A DNA stretch of 20,523 bases, from positions 1-20,523 of IMG/VR virus record IMGVR_UViG_3300030450_001995; one strand, written 5' to 3'. This document shows positions 3,229 to 19,867 of the stretch, in pieces. The DNA is from a virus. The notes beneath the pieces are model-generated. The model did not search any database and was not told the DNA's origin. It saw nothing but the letters and a program-made list of their open reading frames with translations. Both the position numbers and the translations under genes were made by a program. Every line of letters begins with the position of its first letter. Position 1 is the stretch's first letter.

Positions 3229-3680
3229 TGGGATATTTAAGAAAGTCAAATCTTAAAGATTTTAAATATGTGGTAGAAAACATGAGAGTCATGGACAAAA
3301 TTGAAGCTTTGTATCAGACAGGCTTGAGTCCAGAAGATGCTCTTAGTTATACCTTCTTGGGTAGTAAGACTAATATGACTATTGCTGATGATGATGGACA
3401 ACCTATAGGTCTATGTGGAGTGCAGAAAGATGGTTGTATATGGTGCGTTGCCACAGATGAGTTGTTTAATAATAAAAAATACAGAATACAATTAATAAGA
3501 CAAGGCAGAAAATGGGTTGATAATCTACTTGAGTCTTATAAAATACTTTATAATTATGTATATGCAGAAAACACTTCTGCTATAAAATGGTTAAAAGCTC
3601 TTGGGTTTACATTTGTAAAGCTACATGAGAGTTATGGTTATCAAAAAAAACCTTTCTACGAATTTCTGAGGATTGCCTAG
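3228..3680 (+). CDS. Internal virion protein A-like (T7 gp13-like, GNAT-like)
   Basis: This 150-aa protein aligns by eye with T7 gp13 (138 aa) from start to end. The N-terminal RKSNLKDF matches the gp13 RPTKSTDF position, and residues 109-117 (NYVYAENTS) followed by IKWLKALGF match the NYVWVGNTS-IRFLK region. That segment also resembles the acetyl-CoA-binding end of GNAT acetyltransferases, though enzymatic activity is not implied. In T7, gp13 is needed for virion assembly. The start is GTG at 3228, overlapping the gp12 stop by 1 nt, with AGGAG at 3211-3215 (12-nt spacing). The later ATG at 3282 would remove conserved N-terminal sequence, so GTG is preferred. Confidence 0.85.
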   Translation: MGYLRKSNLKDFKYVVENMRVMDKIEALYQTGLSPEDALSYTFLGSKTNMTIADDDGQPIGLCGVQKDGCIWCVATDELFNNKKYRIQLIRQGRKWVDNLLESYKILYNYVYAENTSAIKWLKALGFTFVKLHESYGYQKKPFYEFLRIA

Positions 3681-4262
3681 ATGTGTGTTGGTGCTGCTTT
3701 ATTTGGTACTTCCAAAATTGCAGGTGGGTTGTCTGCTGCAACAGCATTTAATATAGGTCTAGGTCTTACCGCAGCTAATGCTTTTATTGGTAGGGCTGCT
3801 GCACAGCAAAGAGCAAATCAAACTTATAATCAAGCATTATTAGCCAACCAATCAGCAGAAGATGATAAGAGAAGACAACAACAAGCGTTAGCAGAACAAA
3901 AACAAGCCAAAGAAAAAGCAGAAGCACAAAATATATTTGCTAAAAATATAGAAACTTTACAAGCTAGTAGAGCTATAATTGCATCAGAACAAGCAGGTAC
4001 AACTTTAGGATTATTATTAATGGATACAGAAAGACAAGGTGCTAATTATAGAGAATCGGTTGCTCAATCACTTGAATCATTTAGAAGACAATATGATAGA
4101 AATATACTTGCAACGGAAGCTACTTTTAAAAATAGAAGAAATCAATTACAAAGCAATATTAATGAAGCTTACAATGCTATTCCAAGTTTAGGTCAGACAT
4201 TATTAAGTATTGGTGCAAGTGGTTTTAATACATATACTGGAATAACAGCAGGGTTAAGGTAA
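3681..4262 (+). CDS. Internal virion protein B (T7 gp14-like)
   Basis: The product is 193 aa; T7 gp14 is 196 aa. It begins MC followed by a small-residue hydrophobic stretch (residues 3-40), then a Gln/Ala/Lys-rich helical, probably coiled-coil segment (about 40-85), and a C-terminal hydrophobic G/A-rich part. T7 gp14 also starts MC, and inserts into the outer membrane as the first ejected core protein. Family identity is supported by start, size and position between gp13-like and gp15-like genes. The ATG abuts the upstream stop (TAG 3678-3680) with GAGG about 9 nt upstream. The stop overlaps the next ATG by one base (TAATG). Confidence 0.85.
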   Translation: MCVGAALFGTSKIAGGLSAATAFNIGLGLTAANAFIGRAAAQQRANQTYNQALLANQSAEDDKRRQQQALAEQKQAKEKAEAQNIFAKNIETLQASRAIIASEQAGTTLGLLLMDTERQGANYRESVAQSLESFRRQYDRNILATEATFKNRRNQLQSNINEAYNAIPSLGQTLLSIGASGFNTYTGITAGLR

Positions 4263-6937
4263 TGACAAATAGTTTTCAATCAACAGCAGCAACAAATATT
4301 TATGATGCTCCTGTAAGTACATTTGTTGAACCTGTAAGAGTTTTACCTAAAACTTCTTTAGTTGGTTTAGCTGAAACTTTGCAAGTAGTAAACCCTGTTT
4401 TACAAACATATTTACAAGGACAAATAGAAAAAGAAAAACAAGCAGGTATTTTACAGGGTGAAATAGATGTCTTGATGGCTGATCCCAAAAGACTAAAAGA
4501 GTTTACTAATGCTTTGAATAGTACAAATAAAAAAGAAGCTAAAGAAATTCTAGGTAATAATATATTTGTAAGGGCAGGTATTGAAAAAAGAATTGCTATA
4601 AATCATGGATTAGCAGTAGAGGGTAAATTAAATCAATTTCTAAATAATAAAACAATAACTGTTGAAGGAACTGATGGAATTGTAAGACAAGTTCCTTTAA
4701 AAGAATTTAGTGTTAATTCAGAAGAATTTAAAGGAGCTATAGCTGAATTTTCTGAAACACAAAGAACAGATGTAACTGGTGTAAGACCTTCTTTTATTAA
4801 TCAGTATTTTATGCCAGAAGTAGCAAAAGCAGTTCAAAAAGCATATATAAATCAAGAACAAAGTAATCGTGAATTTGTTGTAAACCAAACTAATACCTCA
4901 TTAAAAGATAATATTCTTGCAAATTTTTCAACAATAGATTTTAGCAATTTTGATAGCATTGATATATCAAATCCAGAATCACAATTTAATATAGCTTTTG
5001 ACAATATACAAAAAGAAATAAATTATTTAGATGCTATAGGAGCTTTAAATTCTGTAAGTCCTACTGCCATGAAACAAAATGTCATGGAGATTGCAGAGAT
5101 TATTTTTAATACTGAACTTCGTAGAAATAAAAGTGGAGTTGTTGCAGTACAGAATTTTAGAAATCTTATTGAAAATTTAAAAGTTGGGCCAGAACAAACT
5201 TTAGCAGATGGCACAAAAATTCAACCAACTTTAGGAAGTTTTTTAGGTGAAGATTGGAATAAAATGAAAGCTAGATTTGTTACAAATGAAAATGCTTATG
5301 ATACTTTTAAAAAGAAAAAAATTGCAGAAGTTATAAAACCTAGAATTATAAACTTACTTAATGATTTTGAATTTCAAATTGATGGTGCAGATGGAACTAA
5401 AGAATATAACACAGAAGCACTTGAAGCTTTGCAAGCTTTATTTCCAGATACCCCAGATGTATTTTTAGATGTTATAGAAGATTTAGATATATCTCGTGAT
5501 GAATTTTATGATAACTTTGCTACAAAAATAATAAACAAAAACTTTGCTAGTCCGTTACAAGCATTAAATGAATTAAGAACATTTGAAGCTAGTCTTGGAA
5601 AAACAATTACAGACGAAGATACTACAGAGTTGAACGAGTTAAAAAAAATGATTACAACTCATTTAGGTAAAGATAGATTAGCTATATACAGACCAAGAAT
5701 AAAAACTTTAATAGAAGATAGCAAAGATTTATTAGGCGGTAATAATCAAGTAAACCCTTGGAGAAAAAGAACTAATGTAGAACTTTATTTTTCTGATGCA
5801 ACACAATTTTTAAATAAAGAAATTATAAGAATTTCAAAAGAAGCTAAAACCCCAGAAGAGTTTACAGAAGGTATAGAAGAAGCTATGAAAAACTATAGAA
5901 AAGACATTTTACGATTAAATAATAATAAAACACTTAAGACTTATAAGCTTAAAGAAAGTGGTTTGTGGTTTGAAGCACAAGAAGAATTAGATATTGATCT
6001 TAAAAATGAAGGAAAAGATGCACCTCCAATAAAAGTATCACAAGAAGAATTTAATAAACTACTTGAAAAAGGCAGAATAGAAGAAGATAGTGATGGTAAT
6101 TTTAATAGAGTAGATGATGGTAGACGAGTTGATATTATTCCAGATAAAACAGGTGGTGAAAACAAAAACGGTGGATTTAAAGGTTGGATTAAAAACTTAT
6201 TTACAGATGACGTAAGTATGAACACTACAGATGGTGGAGTCATACCAGTATCTAATACAACAATACCTCCTTTATTAGACAAAAATAATAAAGAAGTTCC
6301 TGTTGGACAATTAGCGGGGGAAGGTGGTACTGAAGCACCTACCGAAGCAGGGGAAAATATGAATAGAGGAGAAGGGGTATTACAAAATAATTTAAAATTA
6401 ACTCTTGATAAGTTTGACCAGTTTAAGGGTGCTGTTTCTTATGGTAGTGGTGGTAGAGGTAGTAATTTAGAGAAAGATAAAAATTATATAACTACGATTG
6501 AAAAAGATGGATTTAGTCATGCTTATGCAGACAAGTCATCTAAAGAAGTTATAGACAAAGCAAAAGAAATATATACTGATCTAGTTATGAATAACACAAA
6601 AGAAAATATAGAAGCTAAATATGCAATAGCACAAATGGTACTTACTGAAGCAATATTAAGTAGTGAAGATGATATATTTGGTGTAATGCAATCAGTTCTA
6701 ATGCGAGTAGCAAGAGCAAGATTAGGAGTAAGAGAATATCCTTACGGAGTATATTCAACAGATATAATTACAGAAATGCTAAGACCTTATCAGTATGTTG
6801 GATTGAAAGATGCAGGTGTAACGACTAAAGAACAATTATTAGAAAAAGCACCAATTAAAGAAAATGAAGAGACATTGAAACGAGTAATTGATATTCTATG
6901 GAATATAGATCCAACAGGTTCAAAAGTAATTATTTAA
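4262..6937 (+). CDS. Internal core protein (T7 gp15-like) with C-terminal cell-wall-hydrolase-like domain
   Basis: This 891-aa protein lies in the gp15 position (T7 gp15, 747 aa) and is predicted to be ejected and to help form the channel across the periplasm. Residues 1 to about 600 are mostly helical and charged. Residues about 605-700 form a low-complexity G/D/N/T-rich linker. Residues about 785-891 resemble SleB-type cell wall hydrolases: an A-Q-M-V-L-T-E-A core with E796 as the candidate catalytic acid, then V-M-Q-S-V-L-M-R-V (808-816) where the family has V-x-x-V-x-x-N-R-V, and a downstream Y-G-V-Y (828-831) and Y-Q-Y (843-845) where the family has gVi..p.QFs. The extra 140 or so residues over T7 gp15 match the linker plus this domain. 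The ejection role is inferred from synteny; the hydrolase call comes from pattern matching by eye. Confidence 0.8.
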   Translation: MTNSFQSTAATNIYDAPVSTFVEPVRVLPKTSLVGLAETLQVVNPVLQTYLQGQIEKEKQAGILQGEIDVLMADPKRLKEFTNALNSTNKKEAKEILGNNIFVRAGIEKRIAINHGLAVEGKLNQFLNNKTITVEGTDGIVRQVPLKEFSVNSEEFKGAIAEFSETQRTDVTGVRPSFINQYFMPEVAKAVQKAYINQEQSNREFVVNQTNTSLKDNILANFSTIDFSNFDSIDISNPESQFNIAFDNIQKEINYLDAIGALNSVSPTAMKQNVMEIAEIIFNTELRRNKSGVVAVQNFRNLIENLKVGPEQTLADGTKIQPTLGSFLGEDWNKMKARFVTNENAYDTFKKKKIAEVIKPRIINLLNDFEFQIDGADGTKEYNTEALEALQALFPDTPDVFLDVIEDLDISRDEFYDNFATKIINKNFASPLQALNELRTFEASLGKTITDEDTTELNELKKMITTHLGKDRLAIYRPRIKTLIEDSKDLLGGNNQVNPWRKRTNVELYFSDATQFLNKEIIRISKEAKTPEEFTEGIEEAMKNYRKDILRLNNNKTLKTYKLKESGLWFEAQEELDIDLKNEGKDAPPIKVSQEEFNKLLEKGRIEEDSDGNFNRVDDGRRVDIIPDKTGGENKNGGFKGWIKNLFTDDVSMNTTDGGVIPVSNTTIPPLLDKNNKEVPVGQLAGEGGTEAPTEAGENMNRGEGVLQNNLKLTLDKFDQFKGAVSYGSGGRGSNLEKDKNYITTIEKDGFSHAYADKSSKEVIDKAKEIYTDLVMNNTKENIEAKYAIAQMVLTEAILSSEDDIFGVMQSVLMRVARARLGVREYPYGVYSTDIITEMLRPYQYVGLKDAGVTTKEQLLEKAPIKENEETLKRVIDILWNIDPTGSKVII

Positions 6938-17462: not shown

Positions 17463-17621
17463 ATGTCAAAACCTACTCTTGAAGAACTGCAAGCAGAGTT
17501 ACAAAATGTTGTTAACAAACACAACCAAGCACAAGAAGTTGTCAAGCAATGTCAAACAAGGTTTACTGAATTAACAGCTATCATTAAAGATAGAACTACC
17601 CCTGAGTCAGATGCCACTTAA
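17463..17621 (+). CDS. Small helical protein (52 aa, unknown)
   Basis: The ORF runs from ATG at 17463 to TAA at 17619-17621. It encodes MSKPTLEELQAELQNVVNKH followed by a Q/V/K-rich stretch with one Cys (residue 30), ending ESDAT. The spacing of L/V residues suggests one long amphipathic or coiled-coil helix (about residues 5-43). It starts 25 nt after the second fibre gene behind an A/T-rich leader. Its end overlaps the next gene by 11 nt in another frame, an arrangement expected for translated genes. The function is unknown. Confidence 0.65.
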   Translation: MSKPTLEELQAELQNVVNKHNQAQEVVKQCQTRFTELTAIIKDRTTPESDAT

Positions 17622-17736
17622 AGGAAAACAGTACAAACTTGATGCTGATGGTGATAAGAAAATCACCAGAAAAGATTTTATGATTTTATCTAAAAACAGC
17701 AAGAAGAAAAAAAAGAATGGAAATAAATCTGCCTAA
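17611..17736 (+). CDS. 41-aa lysine-rich peptide with EF-hand-like calcium-binding loop
   Basis: The ORF reads MPLKGKQYKL then DADGDKKITRKD (residues 11-22), then FMILSKNSKKKKKNGNKSA. The 12-residue stretch matches the EF-hand loop: Asp at positions 1, 3 and 5, Gly at 4, Ile at 8, Thr at 9 and an acidic residue at 12, followed by Phe. The canonical Glu at position 12 is replaced by Asp, and only one loop is present. The C-terminus is strongly basic. It overlaps both neighbours (11 nt upstream, 20 nt downstream), consistent with translational coupling. Role unknown; a calcium-dependent fold or binding to virion or membrane is an inference. Confidence 0.7.
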   Translation: MPLKGKQYKLDADGDKKITRKDFMILSKNSKKKKKNGNKSA

Positions 17737-18217
17737 TCTACCAGATACAGATTATATTCTTATACCACCTACAACAATTTTTTATCCACCTGTGGCAGAA
17801 GTTCCGTACCTAGATCCTGTACTTCTTCCAAGTCTGGAACAGGTAGAGTCGGGTTTGGGAGATCAGGAATCTTCTGTTGAAGAAGAAAAAGCATCTTCAA
17901 CGGAGGAAGTGTCAGGAGTAACACCAGAGACAATACCGAAAGACCTGCCAGAAACCACAGAAACTTTATCAAATGAAGAAGGAATAGCTACGTTTAATTT
18001 ACCATTTTTCGGTGAAATGCCCATACCTGCCCCAGAAGTTATTGCCTCCTCTGTGATCGCTGCTGGAACTGCAAGTATTGTGAGCGTGGCGGGCGGGATT
18101 GCTATGCAATCAGTATTAGCTTTTATCAAGAAAACATTTAAGAAAATATTTACTAAAGTTCTTAAAAAAGAAGTCGCAAATGTGAAAGAAAAAATGGATA
18201 ATAATAAAGGTAGCTAG
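17717..18217 (+). CDS. Acidic Pro-rich protein with C-terminal membrane helix and basic tail (unknown)
   Basis: In this 166-aa protein, residues 1-40 are Pro/Tyr/Leu-rich (MEINLPNLPDTDYILIPP). Residues about 42-92 are acidic and Ser/Thr-rich. Residues about 105-137 form one hydrophobic helix (VIASSVIAAGTASIVSVAGG and on), and 138-166 are a basic amphipathic tail (KKTFKKIFTKVLKK). There is no signal peptide, so it is likely anchored by the C-terminal helix. It could be a holin-like or membrane-bound virion protein; the position after the fibre gene, where T7 has the gene 17.5 holin, is compatible with this but not proof. It starts within the 41-aa gene (20-nt overlap) with AAGAAG just upstream. 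Its stop lies in an inverted repeat shared with the opposing gene. Confidence 0.8.
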   Translation: MEINLPNLPDTDYILIPPTTIFYPPVAEVPYLDPVLLPSLEQVESGLGDQESSVEEEKASSTEEVSGVTPETIPKDLPETTETLSNEEGIATFNLPFFGEMPIPAPEVIASSVIAAGTASIVSVAGGIAMQSVLAFIKKTFKKIFTKVLKKEVANVKEKMDNNKGS

Positions 18218-18259
18218 AGTACACATACACCCGTAATGTGGCGTCTAAACTAGCTACTT
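18208..18259. terminator. Inverted repeat between convergent genes, possible bidirectional terminator
   Basis: GTAGCTAG (18210-18217) pairs with CTAGCTAC (18250-18257), extended by a G-T and an A-T pair (18208-18259). Inside the 32-nt loop a second stem can form, CACAT (18222-18226) with ATGTG (18236-18240). The forward gene stop TAG (18215-18217) and the reverse gene stop (18254-18256) both lie within the outer arms. T-rich sequence follows on both strands (TTTTT at about 18263-18267 on plus). The long loop makes this a weaker terminator than the one at 53-82. Confidence 0.45.
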
Positions 18260-18781
18260 AAATTTTTCTTTATTTGCTTTTACATAACTTCGTATATTGA
18301 TTACATCACTACAAATATATGCGAACTTAGACTCAGGGTTTATCATGTAGCCTGATGCGTGAAGCTGACTACATTTCAAAATACGAACTAGCTGTTTATC
18401 ATGCACTTGCTTGTCTAGTTCTTCTATGGCTAACTCTAGCTTCACTTTGGATAATTCATTACAGGTTTGATTATCTCCTAGTGGGATCATAAAAGACATT
18501 TGTACTCCCCAACCTTCATTGATGCTATATGTTTCTTCTCCCTGTGCATCATTACCTGTATAAAAAGGAGTTATTGCCATAGTTGGTTGGCTACATACTA
18601 AATTTCCAAACTGTTGTTTACCTGTCATTCCATTATTAATATTCATATTCTGATTGATAATACTTGAATTACCAATCGCATTTGGTTGAGCCTGTACGTT
18701 TGTATCGCCTTCGGCTTTTACCTGATTACTGGCTAAACACAGACAAGCTAGTAATAACGCTTGTAGTCGTGATCGTATCAT
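18254..18781 (-). CDS. Secreted four-cysteine protein (175 aa, unknown)
   Basis: The N-terminus is a signal peptide: MIRSRLQ, a hydrophobic core ALLLACLCLA, and likely cleavage after QVKA (about residue 23). A lipoprotein reading (LLAC) is possible but the motif is not ideal. The mature part starts with Asn/Gln-rich sequence (NSSIINQNMNINNG) and then has a conserved-looking centre with ITPFYTGNDAQGE and WGVQMSFMIPLGD. It carries four cysteines, in LVCSQ, QTCNE, LKCSQ and YICSD, enough for two disulfides in the periplasm. The last gene of the minus-strand block, it overlaps the upstream gene by 56 nt; the start is set by the signal peptide beginning right there. I recall similar secreted proteins in marine cyanophages (unchecked). 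No function is known to me. Confidence 0.82.
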   Translation of the reverse strand: MIRSRLQALLLACLCLASNQVKAEGDTNVQAQPNAIGNSSIINQNMNINNGMTGKQQFGNLVCSQPTMAITPFYTGNDAQGEETYSINEGWGVQMSFMIPLGDNQTCNELSKVKLELAIEELDKQVHDKQLVRILKCSQLHASGYMINPESKFAYICSDVINIRSYVKANKEKFK

Positions 18782-19091
18782 TCTGAGTAATTTGTTCTGT
18801 TAATGCACCAGCAGCCCTTGTAGTTGTGCTTAAAGTCCACTCAGCAGTACTATCTGTTGGAGTAAATACTGCATCTGTAGCTGTAATTCCTCCACTTGTA
18901 TCTGAAGTTACAGTTATATTTGTAGCTTCATAAGTATTTAAAGCAGAACCATATTTTTCAGTTACGATACTGCGAGTTATGGTTTGAGTAATGTTTTCAG
19001 TTCTGTTACTAGAACCAGTAGTCCAAGAAGGAACTCCGTTTGCATAGCAAGGTGCAGCTAGAAACAAACCTAATAAAAGTAATTTTTTCAT
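18726..19091 (-). CDS. Secreted Thr/Ser-rich protein (121 aa, unknown)
   Basis: The signal peptide is clear: MKKLLLLGLFLAAPCYA with probable cleavage before NGVPSW (after residue 17). The mature protein is about 104 aa, cysteine-free and rich in Thr/Ser. It includes a start motif W-T-T-G-S-S-N-R-T-E-N-I-T-Q-T-I-T-R-S (near 23-41), alternating beta-strand-like sequence, and the ending TTTSVITSLSVFSQ. It should be exported to the periplasm or envelope. It is the second gene of the minus-strand block: its ATG overlaps the stop of the 79-aa membrane protein (ATGA) and its end overlaps the next secreted protein. The close coupling suggests the three act together. I recall this type of protein from cyanophage genomes, without an assigned function. 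Confidence 0.85.
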   Translation of the reverse strand: MKKLLLLGLFLAAPCYANGVPSWTTGSSNRTENITQTITRSIVTEKYGSALNTYEATNITVTSDTSGGITATDAVFTPTDSTAEWTLSTTTRAAGALTEQITQNDTITTTSVITSLSVFSQ

Positions 19092-19327
19092 TTGGTGGTT
19101 GGTTTATTGTTCTTATTATCCACTATAGTATCTTTTTTCTTTTTTATCTGAAAACCTAGTGATGCAGTACTTGCTGAAAAAATACTTGCAATAAATGTCG
19201 GGTCAAAATCTACTATTTTTTTACCAGAAGGAGGTTCGTAGTATGAGAGAGATAATAGCGTTGCTGACCATAAAAGCACACAAACTTTGACTATAGTTTC
19301 GACTTTACTAGGCTCTTGATCTTCCAT
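19088..19327 (-). CDS. Small two-helix membrane protein (79 aa, holin-like topology)
   Basis: Residues about 9-30 (VETIVKVCVLLWSATLLSLSYY region) and about 45-62 (TFIASIFSASTASLGFQI) are hydrophobic. They are separated by a short polar turn (EPPSGKKIVDFD) and followed by a basic tail (KKKKD, then KNNKPTTK). The size, two helices and charged C-terminus fit small holins, but many small phage membrane proteins look alike. It is first in the minus-strand block and couples by an ATGA overlap to the first secreted protein. In T7 the holin and spanin genes lie near here, between fibre and TerL, on the plus strand. Confidence 0.78.
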   Translation of the reverse strand: MEDQEPSKVETIVKVCVLLWSATLLSLSYYEPPSGKKIVDFDPTFIASIFSASTASLGFQIKKKKDTIVDNKNNKPTTK

Positions 19328-19392: not shown

Positions 19393-19557
19393 ATGCTAAA
19401 AATTTTAAAACCAATACTACTAAAATTCTTTACTACAACTGCTGTAAAGAGACTTATCGTAGATTTGCTTCGTGCAATCTGTAAGCAGACCTCGAATACT
19501 CTTGATGACAGGGCTGTTGATATGTTGGAGCAACAGTTGTTTCCTAAATTAAACTGA
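19393..19557 (+). CDS. Small hydrophobic/amphipathic protein (54 aa, unknown)
   Basis: The ORF runs from ATG at 19393 to TGA at 19555-19557. The N-terminal 30 residues (MLKILKPILLKFFTTTAVKR then LIVDLLRAIC) are hydrophobic with spaced Lys/Arg, suggesting a membrane-lying amphipathic helix. The C-terminal part is polar, with SNTLDDRAVDMLEQQLF. I have an impression of short proteins with a TxNTLDDRAV-type motif in phage genomes near lysis or packaging genes, but cannot assign a family. It ends one base before the next ATG, so the two are probably cotranslated with the terminase genes. It is too short for most ORF callers. Confidence 0.68.
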   Translation: MLKILKPILLKFFTTTAVKRLIVDLLRAICKQTSNTLDDRAVDMLEQQLFPKLN

Positions 19558-19558
19558 T

Positions 19559-19867
19559 ATGAACCACAAAGAGTTTTTCAAGATTCTTGTTGGCAATCCA
19601 CCGCCAGAAATTGAATTTGAGATTGAAATCAAACAACGTGAAACAGAACAAATGCCTGATGAAGCTGTAAGGGCATACTGTTTAGACCTAGTTAAGTACA
19701 CCAAGCTACAAGATTTACTTTTAACTTCAGCAATAATGCGTATATCAGAGATAGAAACCAAACTATATCGTTATGAAAAAAGTATGGAACTATATAAAAA
19801 GGTTAGAAAGCTAGGTTTTGTAGGTAAAATTAAGTATCTTCTATTTGGCAAAACAGATAAAAAGTGA
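19559..19867 (+). CDS. Small protein upstream of TerS (102 aa, unknown)
   Basis: The N-terminal half is acidic (EIEFEIEIKQRETEQMPDEA, residues about 17-36). A helical centre (VRAYCLDLVKYTKLQDLL, about 37-54) and a likely coiled-coil part (ISEIETKLYRYEKSMELYKK) follow, and the end is basic (about 82-102, with KIKYLLFGKTDKK). No signal peptide, membrane helix or catalytic motif is seen. It follows the 54-aa gene after 1 nt and precedes TerS by 27 nt. Position suggests late expression with packaging genes; function unknown. Confidence 0.8.
   Translation: MNHKEFFKILVGNPPPEIEFEIEIKQRETEQMPDEAVRAYCLDLVKYTKLQDLLLTSAIMRISEIETKLYRYEKSMELYKKVRKLGFVGKIKYLLFGKTDKK

Follow-up and report, generated by a model that had tools for sequence, protein, structure and literature searches.

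In T4-like cyanophages, the gene families T4-GC 218, 219, 234, 235 and 237 lie in a cluster, often together with a plasmid-stability gene. Sullivan et al. (2010, PMC3037559) reported this cluster in all but one of 16 T4-like cyanophages, the exception being S-PM2. The passages of that report concerned with the cluster treat T4-like phages; a shared function is suggested there without a specific one being proposed, and podo- and siphoviruses are not mentioned. In the annotation of P-SSM2, families 218, 234, 235 and 237 correspond to the proteins termed here P1, PR, P3 and P2′, respectively, with P2 (family 236) in between.

The window analysed in this report (the whole stretch of 20,523 nt) covers part of the genome of a T7-like Prochlorococcus podovirus that is closely related to the MPP-C group (P-SCSP1/P-SCSP2, with MED4 as host). 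Its matches comprise the tail tube, nozzle, gp13, gp14 and DNA packaging, and P3 of the window is 85–87% identical to P3 of P-SCSP1/P-SCSP2. Homologues of P1, PR and P3 are linked in the window, as in the T4-GC cluster. The window differs in the lack of P2′ (P2 follows directly after P1) and of a recognised plasmid-stability gene, and its minus-strand genes form one overlapping run. S-PM2 was also negative in our panel of 16 named phages, in agreement with the account of the cluster in PMC3037559. The set had been proposed as novel, which is only partly right, since most of its members belong to the T4-like cyanophage cluster of that 2010 account (PMC3037559). The statement that cyanophages carry similar exported proteins of no assigned function proved right, with homologues present in T7-like, T4-like and siphovirus cyanophages. 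One module is thus common to three phage morphologies, which is new here.

Gene layout of the cassette

The three minus-strand ORFs P1, P2 and P3 (Table 1) all start with ATG, and the other evident genes of the window are all located on the plus strand. The overlaps are those originally described, 4 nt (ATGA, 19088-19091) followed by 56 nt (18726-18781). The median dN/dS values against relatives are 0.18 for P1, 0.17 for P2 and 0.15 for P3, and homologues of the cassette are present in hundreds of phage records. Thus, the three ORFs are real genes.

Table 1. Positions of the cassette genes and adjoining features in the window.
Feature	Position	Strand	Description
P1	19088..19327	-	79 aa, two TM, DUF6450; = PSSP7_043, Syn9 gp161, P-SSM2 T4-GC 218
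P2	18726..19091	-	121 aa, exported (predicted), Thr/Ser-rich, ends SLSVFSQ; = PSSP7_044, Syn9 gp166, P-SSM2 T4-GC 236
P3	18254..18781	-	175 aa, exported (predicted), four invariant Cys; = PSSP7_045, Syn9 gp165, P-SSM2 T4-GC 235
PR	17717..18217	+	166 aa, acidic, Pro-rich, C-terminal TM; = PSSP7_042, Syn9 gp164, P-SSM2 T4-GC 234
P3/PR convergent junction	18210..18257	.	inverted repeat (G)TAGCTAG...CTAGCTA(C)
Divergent 65-nt gap upstream of P1	19328..19392	.	candidate promoter region
54-aa flanking gene, PHROG 2738/402	19393..19557	+	neighbour, not claimed as cassette member

The limits 18254-19327 given for the block are correct for these ORFs but do not cover its full extent, as the plus-strand gene PR belongs to the cassette as a fourth member. 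In the loci of podoviruses and kyanoviruses PR adjoins the cassette, and its homologues were aligned across seven phages, including PSSP7_042, SRSM4_032 and a gene of DSL-LC02. In the siphovirus P-HS2, a clear PR-like gene converges on P3; it is evident from the translation and was missed by the PR profile.

P3 and PR are separated by 36 nt. The folding energy of the surrounding 100 nt is -20.1 kcal/mol on one strand and -18.7 kcal/mol on the other (values calculated without a shuffle control), and the junction is a possible two-way terminator. Scans around the cassette found neither sigma-70 promoters nor U-tract terminators above chance, and no consensus site is present in the gap upstream of P1. 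By eye, this gap is nearly unchanged and in the same place in P-HS2, and a blastn block spans it. The coding DNA around P1, unlike the gap, is only about 80% identical between the window and P-HS2. P1 is 95–97% identical at the amino-acid level in the siphoviruses MED4-117 and P-HS2; a recent transfer of P1 between podo- and siphoviruses, considered on account of this value, is not supported by the low DNA identity.

Small proteins related to the product of the 54-aa flanking gene also flank the cassette in P-SCSP1u and NATL1A-7. The PHROG matches of the genes flanking the cassette are confined to terminase and to families without an assigned function. By eye, the small genes at 17463-17621, 19393-19557 and 19559-19867 are like genes 00005 and 00012 of P-HS2, and the second of the three also resembles an ORF beside the same gap in this siphovirus. 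From this likeness, the block exchanged between podo- and siphoviruses may be larger than the cassette.

Order, distribution and timing in phages

Profile HMMs applied to fetched loci support the claim that P1-P2-P3 is one unit, and its order is kept in other marine phages. Linkage was counted in roughly 480 P3-bearing loci, a figure derived from overlapping scans. In nearly all ordered loci P2 immediately precedes P3, and this is the only nearly constant relation in the cassette. The few podovirus loci that list P3 before P2 probably do so by overlap of long stop-to-stop frames. Among loci with more than 700 nt of 5′ flank, none has P3 without P2. Homologues that occur only singly and unlinked were looked for across the phage loci, and this is not the pattern found.

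MPP-A/B-like contigs carry the genes in the order and relative strand PR+ P1+ P2+ P3+, and MPP-C-like contigs as P1+ P2+ P3+ PR-. Kyanoviruses have P2+ P3+ PR- P1-, and the siphovirus arrangement is P1+ (P2′+) P2+ P3+. A separately transcribed block on the opposite strand, as envisaged in the original prediction, is therefore not a general property: in P-SSP7, NATL1A-7 and S-TIP37 the same genes are in line with the late genes. Opposite polarity is one of several arrangements and not a defining feature of the cassette. The genes of the large and small terminase subunits of P-SCSP1u are on the minus strand (L516:34646-36699), unlike in the window and P-SCSP2. Since these genes are inverted too, the fibre-terminase region of MPP-C phages is prone to inversion.

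Across the 16 named phages the presence of the cassette is close to all-or-none. All four families are found in P-SSM2, Syn9, P-SSP7, S-RSM4, S-TIP37, S-H38, P-RSP2 and P-SCSP1u, and P1-P3 in MED4-117. The only match in S-CREM2 is a weak one to P1 that contains stops, and all four families are absent from S-CREM1, S-PM2, Syn5, P60, PSS2 and Pf-WMP4. Genes 2-5 of S-CREM1, examined as candidate analogues, do not resemble the cassette. P3 was found in 462 phage records, named after Synechococcus, Prochlorococcus, cyanophages or uncultured/marine viruses, with one named Tiamatvirus, the genus of P-SSP7. P3 is unannotated in S-RSM4 (L010:7852-8993, where a plus-strand gene is called) and apparently also in S-SCSM1 (L255:7127-7765). 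A record survey based on annotation thus undercounts P3.

In kyanoviruses, the core of the T4 late promoter, TAAATA, is located just upstream of P2′-P2-P3 in 57 of the 64 loci with enough flank and upstream of P1 in 40 of 44, mostly within 50 nt, compared with 6.3% of 140-nt background windows. These late-promoter cores upstream of both transcripts are new here. As the two kyanovirus transcripts lie on opposite strands, the signal is seen twice independently. The cassette is probably expressed late in T4-like phages, judging from these motifs, and probably also in T7-like phages, judging from its position in the late region.

Protein features and a possible role in lysis

In line with the predicted two-helix membrane protein, P1 has hydrophobic segments at residues ~9-27 and ~43-61, the second of which is weak (KD19 1.11). 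Its hydropathy and basic tail suggest that it is probably an N-in/C-in hairpin. P1 matches PF20048 (DUF6450) in Pfam with E=6.8e-18 and the PHROGs 21865/721/2714; no mention of DUF6450 was found in the literature searched. In PR, a TM segment rich in small residues is located near the basic C-terminus (KD19 1.85 at residue 119).

P2 and P3 have signal-like N-terminal segments according to hydropathy. P2 had been described as free of cysteine and P3 as containing four; both statements are true for the mature part, but the signal segments hold one further Cys in P2 and two in P3. By inspection, the N-termini of P3 across lineages show AxA-type ends and no conserved lipobox, and P2 of the window has none either. 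All 95 aligned P3 sequences keep Cys63, Cys107, Cys137 and Cys157, a finding that is new here and would fit two disulfides in the exported protein. P3 matches the PHROGs 1755/848. Its AF2 model is weak (pLDDT 65, pTM 0.33, with a predicted 40-residue helix 104-143), and the fold matches in the PDB (E>=0.26) were dismissed as meaningless for this poor prediction. An apparent natural P2-P3 fusion, 'gp165' of NATL1A-7, was rejected as evidence of an interaction, as it is an annotation artefact in which the N-terminal half comes from ORF2 DNA in a different reading frame.

P2 matches PHROG 650 (E=4e-12). In an alignment of 100 sequences F119 is invariant and Q121 is conserved in at least 90%. The AF2 model of P2 (pLDDT 87, pTM 0.43) contains two long strands of 23-24 residues each (25-47 and 97-120) with 43% Ser/Thr. 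Phage tail and collar proteins and beta-barrel pores lead the list of PDB fold matches, all with E>=0.013; neither P2 nor P3 has a match at E<=0.001. The matches of P2 to the pore formers lysenin, aerolysin and CDTb are weak (Foldseek, E>=0.13, TMq about 0.2) and were rejected. A membrane beta hairpin was rejected as well, since the two strands show no periodicity of 160-180 degrees (shuffle p 0.49 and 0.84, respectively). Without the hydrophobic alternation of a membrane hairpin, P2 is not called a pore former.

The best fold match of P2, a tail chain of a Staphylococcus phage (E=0.013), and the location of the set next to structural genes in S-RSM4 would fit P2 and P3 being minor structural or decoration proteins of the virion. 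This is very unlikely: the signal sequences and disulfide-type cysteines favour export, no PDB match reaches E<=0.001 and relatives are present in host chromosomes. The virion proteomes of S-CREM1 and S-CREM2 are uninformative here because both phages lack the cassette.

No spanins are recognised in the phages of Prochlorococcus and Synechococcus. Kongari et al. list P-SSP7, P-SSM2, Syn9, S-PM2, Syn5 and others as spanin-less (PMC6139136). The main rival explanation is a lysis module in which P1 would be a class II-type holin (two TM, N-in/C-in) and P2, P3 and PR would replace spanins in opening the outer membrane. The late promoters and the position between fibre and terminase, where T7-like phages have holin and spanin genes, fit this function. 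In the hydropathy scan of P-SCSP1u (37.9 kb, 38 genes), no non-structural proteins other than PR and P1 are convincing membrane proteins. P2 and P3 are its only evident exported proteins, the signal segment of P3 being below the scan threshold. The remaining hydropathy peaks belong to core, capsid and replication proteins or a 66-aa protein. The only peptidoglycan-hydrolase domain among the scanned P-SCSP1u proteins is the C-terminal SLT of an internal core protein (L516:16096-18957), and neither a holin nor a separate endolysin was recognised. A holin made by the phage itself, if there is one, would therefore most likely be P1 or PR, and the cassette provides the likeliest membrane and exported candidates in a genome of this type.

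While the elimination in P-SCSP1u keeps the predicted lysis set in play, it is not a universal one: S-PM2, Syn5, P60 and PSS2 are also listed as spanin-less and lack all four families. Furthermore, the cassette has no match to holin or spanin families in Pfam, PHROGs and NCBIfam, P3 lacks a conserved lipobox and the P2 strands lack amphipathic alternation. Relatives of P2 and P3 in the chromosomes of living cells also speak against a lysis module, which we regard as somewhat unlikely.

Relatives in host chromosomes and proposed function

In three freshwater picocyanobacterial MAGs, P2′-P2-P3 is located beside host genes, in two of them with a convergent PR (L252/L253). P2′ belongs to PHROG 564 in the two MAGs tested. 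Citrate synthase or DUF3352 is found 6-18 kb further in on the same contig in two of them, and the flanking ORFs tested gave no phage-family match. The three contigs end at or near the cassette, so this synteny may partly reflect the assembly or the boundary of an element.

P3 is present in 14 of 300 host-family genomes, namely as two podovirus-type cassettes, in two of the MAGs above and as ten divergent P3 homologues. Among the 300 genomes, none but the two with podovirus loci have P1, and PR on the host side is limited to the freshwater MAGs. Thus, half of the set (P1 and PR) may be phage-specific. One of the two genomes with a podovirus-type cassette is the Prochlorococcus single-cell genome AG-363-M21 (L254, QCFU01000005.1:65844-78248; L518, L519). 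Host genes on its 78.9-kb contig include those for leucyl-tRNA synthetase, phosphoglucose isomerase and transcription-repair coupling factor. Close to one end, the contig also has the late region of an MPP-B-like podovirus, with TerL (82% to P-SSP7), fibre and cassette. This region is either an integrated podovirus or an assembly chimera.

The regions of the divergent P3 were read in eight of the ten genomes and include contigs of 2.66 and 3.2 Mb. The adjacent genes encode PALP enzymes, Clp proteins, RelA/SpoT and NDK. The similarity of host to phage P3 is low (E about 1e-7 to 1e-15), and the four cysteines align between them. In one genome the chromosomal P3 homologue is seemingly split by an insertion with a transposase-like ORF (L537:2985-4956, ORF 3270-4301; G105:C1). 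Host P3 is found among exported-like proteins, some of which are P2-like (best E=3e-9, others about 1e-5 and with composition bias); most of these P2 links are marginal, and even the best is affected by composition bias. Several neighbours end in S-[VA]-F, and one ends in NSLTVFDQ, close to SLSVFSQ of the phage. A C-terminal [ST][VAI][FY] is found in 18 of 59 exported-like proteins and in 11 of 376 internal 20-mers of the same proteins (p=2e-10 for a pattern chosen post hoc), an enrichment that is suggestive only. P2′ of most kyanoviruses ends in SEITVID and not in S-V-F.

Homologues of P3 and, more weakly, of P2 are accordingly present in picocyanobacterial chromosomes within clusters of predicted exported proteins, which is new here. 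Chromosomal homologues in the host clade beside housekeeping genes, the mark of auxiliary genes, were found for P3 and P2, and not for P1. These relatives favour an exported-protein system over a set dedicated to lysis, and point to a system in freshwater picocyanobacteria that has not been described.

Superinfection exclusion, in which exported P2 and P3 would coat or alter the outer membrane so that other phages cannot adsorb or inject, would also make use of exported proteins like the host relatives. It would agree with a separate block of genes for small exported and membrane proteins, and with a P1 that is nearly identical in podo- and siphoviruses infecting the same host MED4. Exclusion genes are usually early and patchy, whereas this cluster is probably late. 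It is also almost universal in T4-like cyanophages, being described for all but one of 16 in the account of the cluster in PMC3037559. No family of the cassette matches an anti-phage defence family in PADLOC. As a rival explanation, exclusion is considered unlikely.

The best explanation, held with moderate confidence and drawn from sequence comparison, is that P1-P2-P3 and PR form a late export module of picocyanobacterial phages of three morphologies, a reduced form of a chromosomally encoded exported-protein system. The conserved linkage, the export and membrane signals and the invariant P3 cysteines are firm, as are the chromosomal relatives of P3 and, less strongly, those of P2. P2, with P2′ in kyanoviruses and siphoviruses, would be an extended Ser/Thr-rich beta protein destined for the outer membrane or the surface of the cell, perhaps via its conserved C-terminal S-V-F-x-Q end. 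P3 would be its disulfide-bonded partner in the periplasm or outer membrane, and PR and P1 would be inner-membrane components either added by the phage or adapted to it. Made late, the set would remodel the infected cell's envelope. Its most probable benefit would be an altered surface that blocks superinfection or adsorption to debris, or else assistance at lysis, when the outer membrane has to be opened. A more specific version is put forward tentatively: the picocyanobacterial system would consist of multi-gene Ser/Thr-rich clusters with S-[VA]-F ends and a four-Cys partner, and the phages would have kept a minimal late version with phage-specific P1 and PR as a tool for envelope remodelling or lysis. 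S-TIP37, which infects Synechococcus WH8109, carries the cassette and is genetically tractable (PMC8776855), so the function is directly testable.

Compared with class II holins, P1 has a similar putative topology by hydropathy and no homology. Like class II holins and two-component spanins, the set combines membrane and exported proteins in a late block; it differs from two-component spanins in the absent lipobox and in not being universal in cyanophages. The genes PSSP7_042-045 of P-SSP7 have the same order PR-P1-P2-P3, and GenBank notes one TM for 042, two TM for 043 and a signal peptide for 044. All of them are on the late-gene strand in P-SSP7, whereas P1-P2-P3 of the window is inverted relative to PR. 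The freshwater picocyanobacterial clusters (L537-L544, L251-L253) contain more exported proteins than the phage set, no P1 and a divergent P3. They share with the phage set the same four cysteines of P3, and its neighbours there are P2-like or end in S-[VA]-F.
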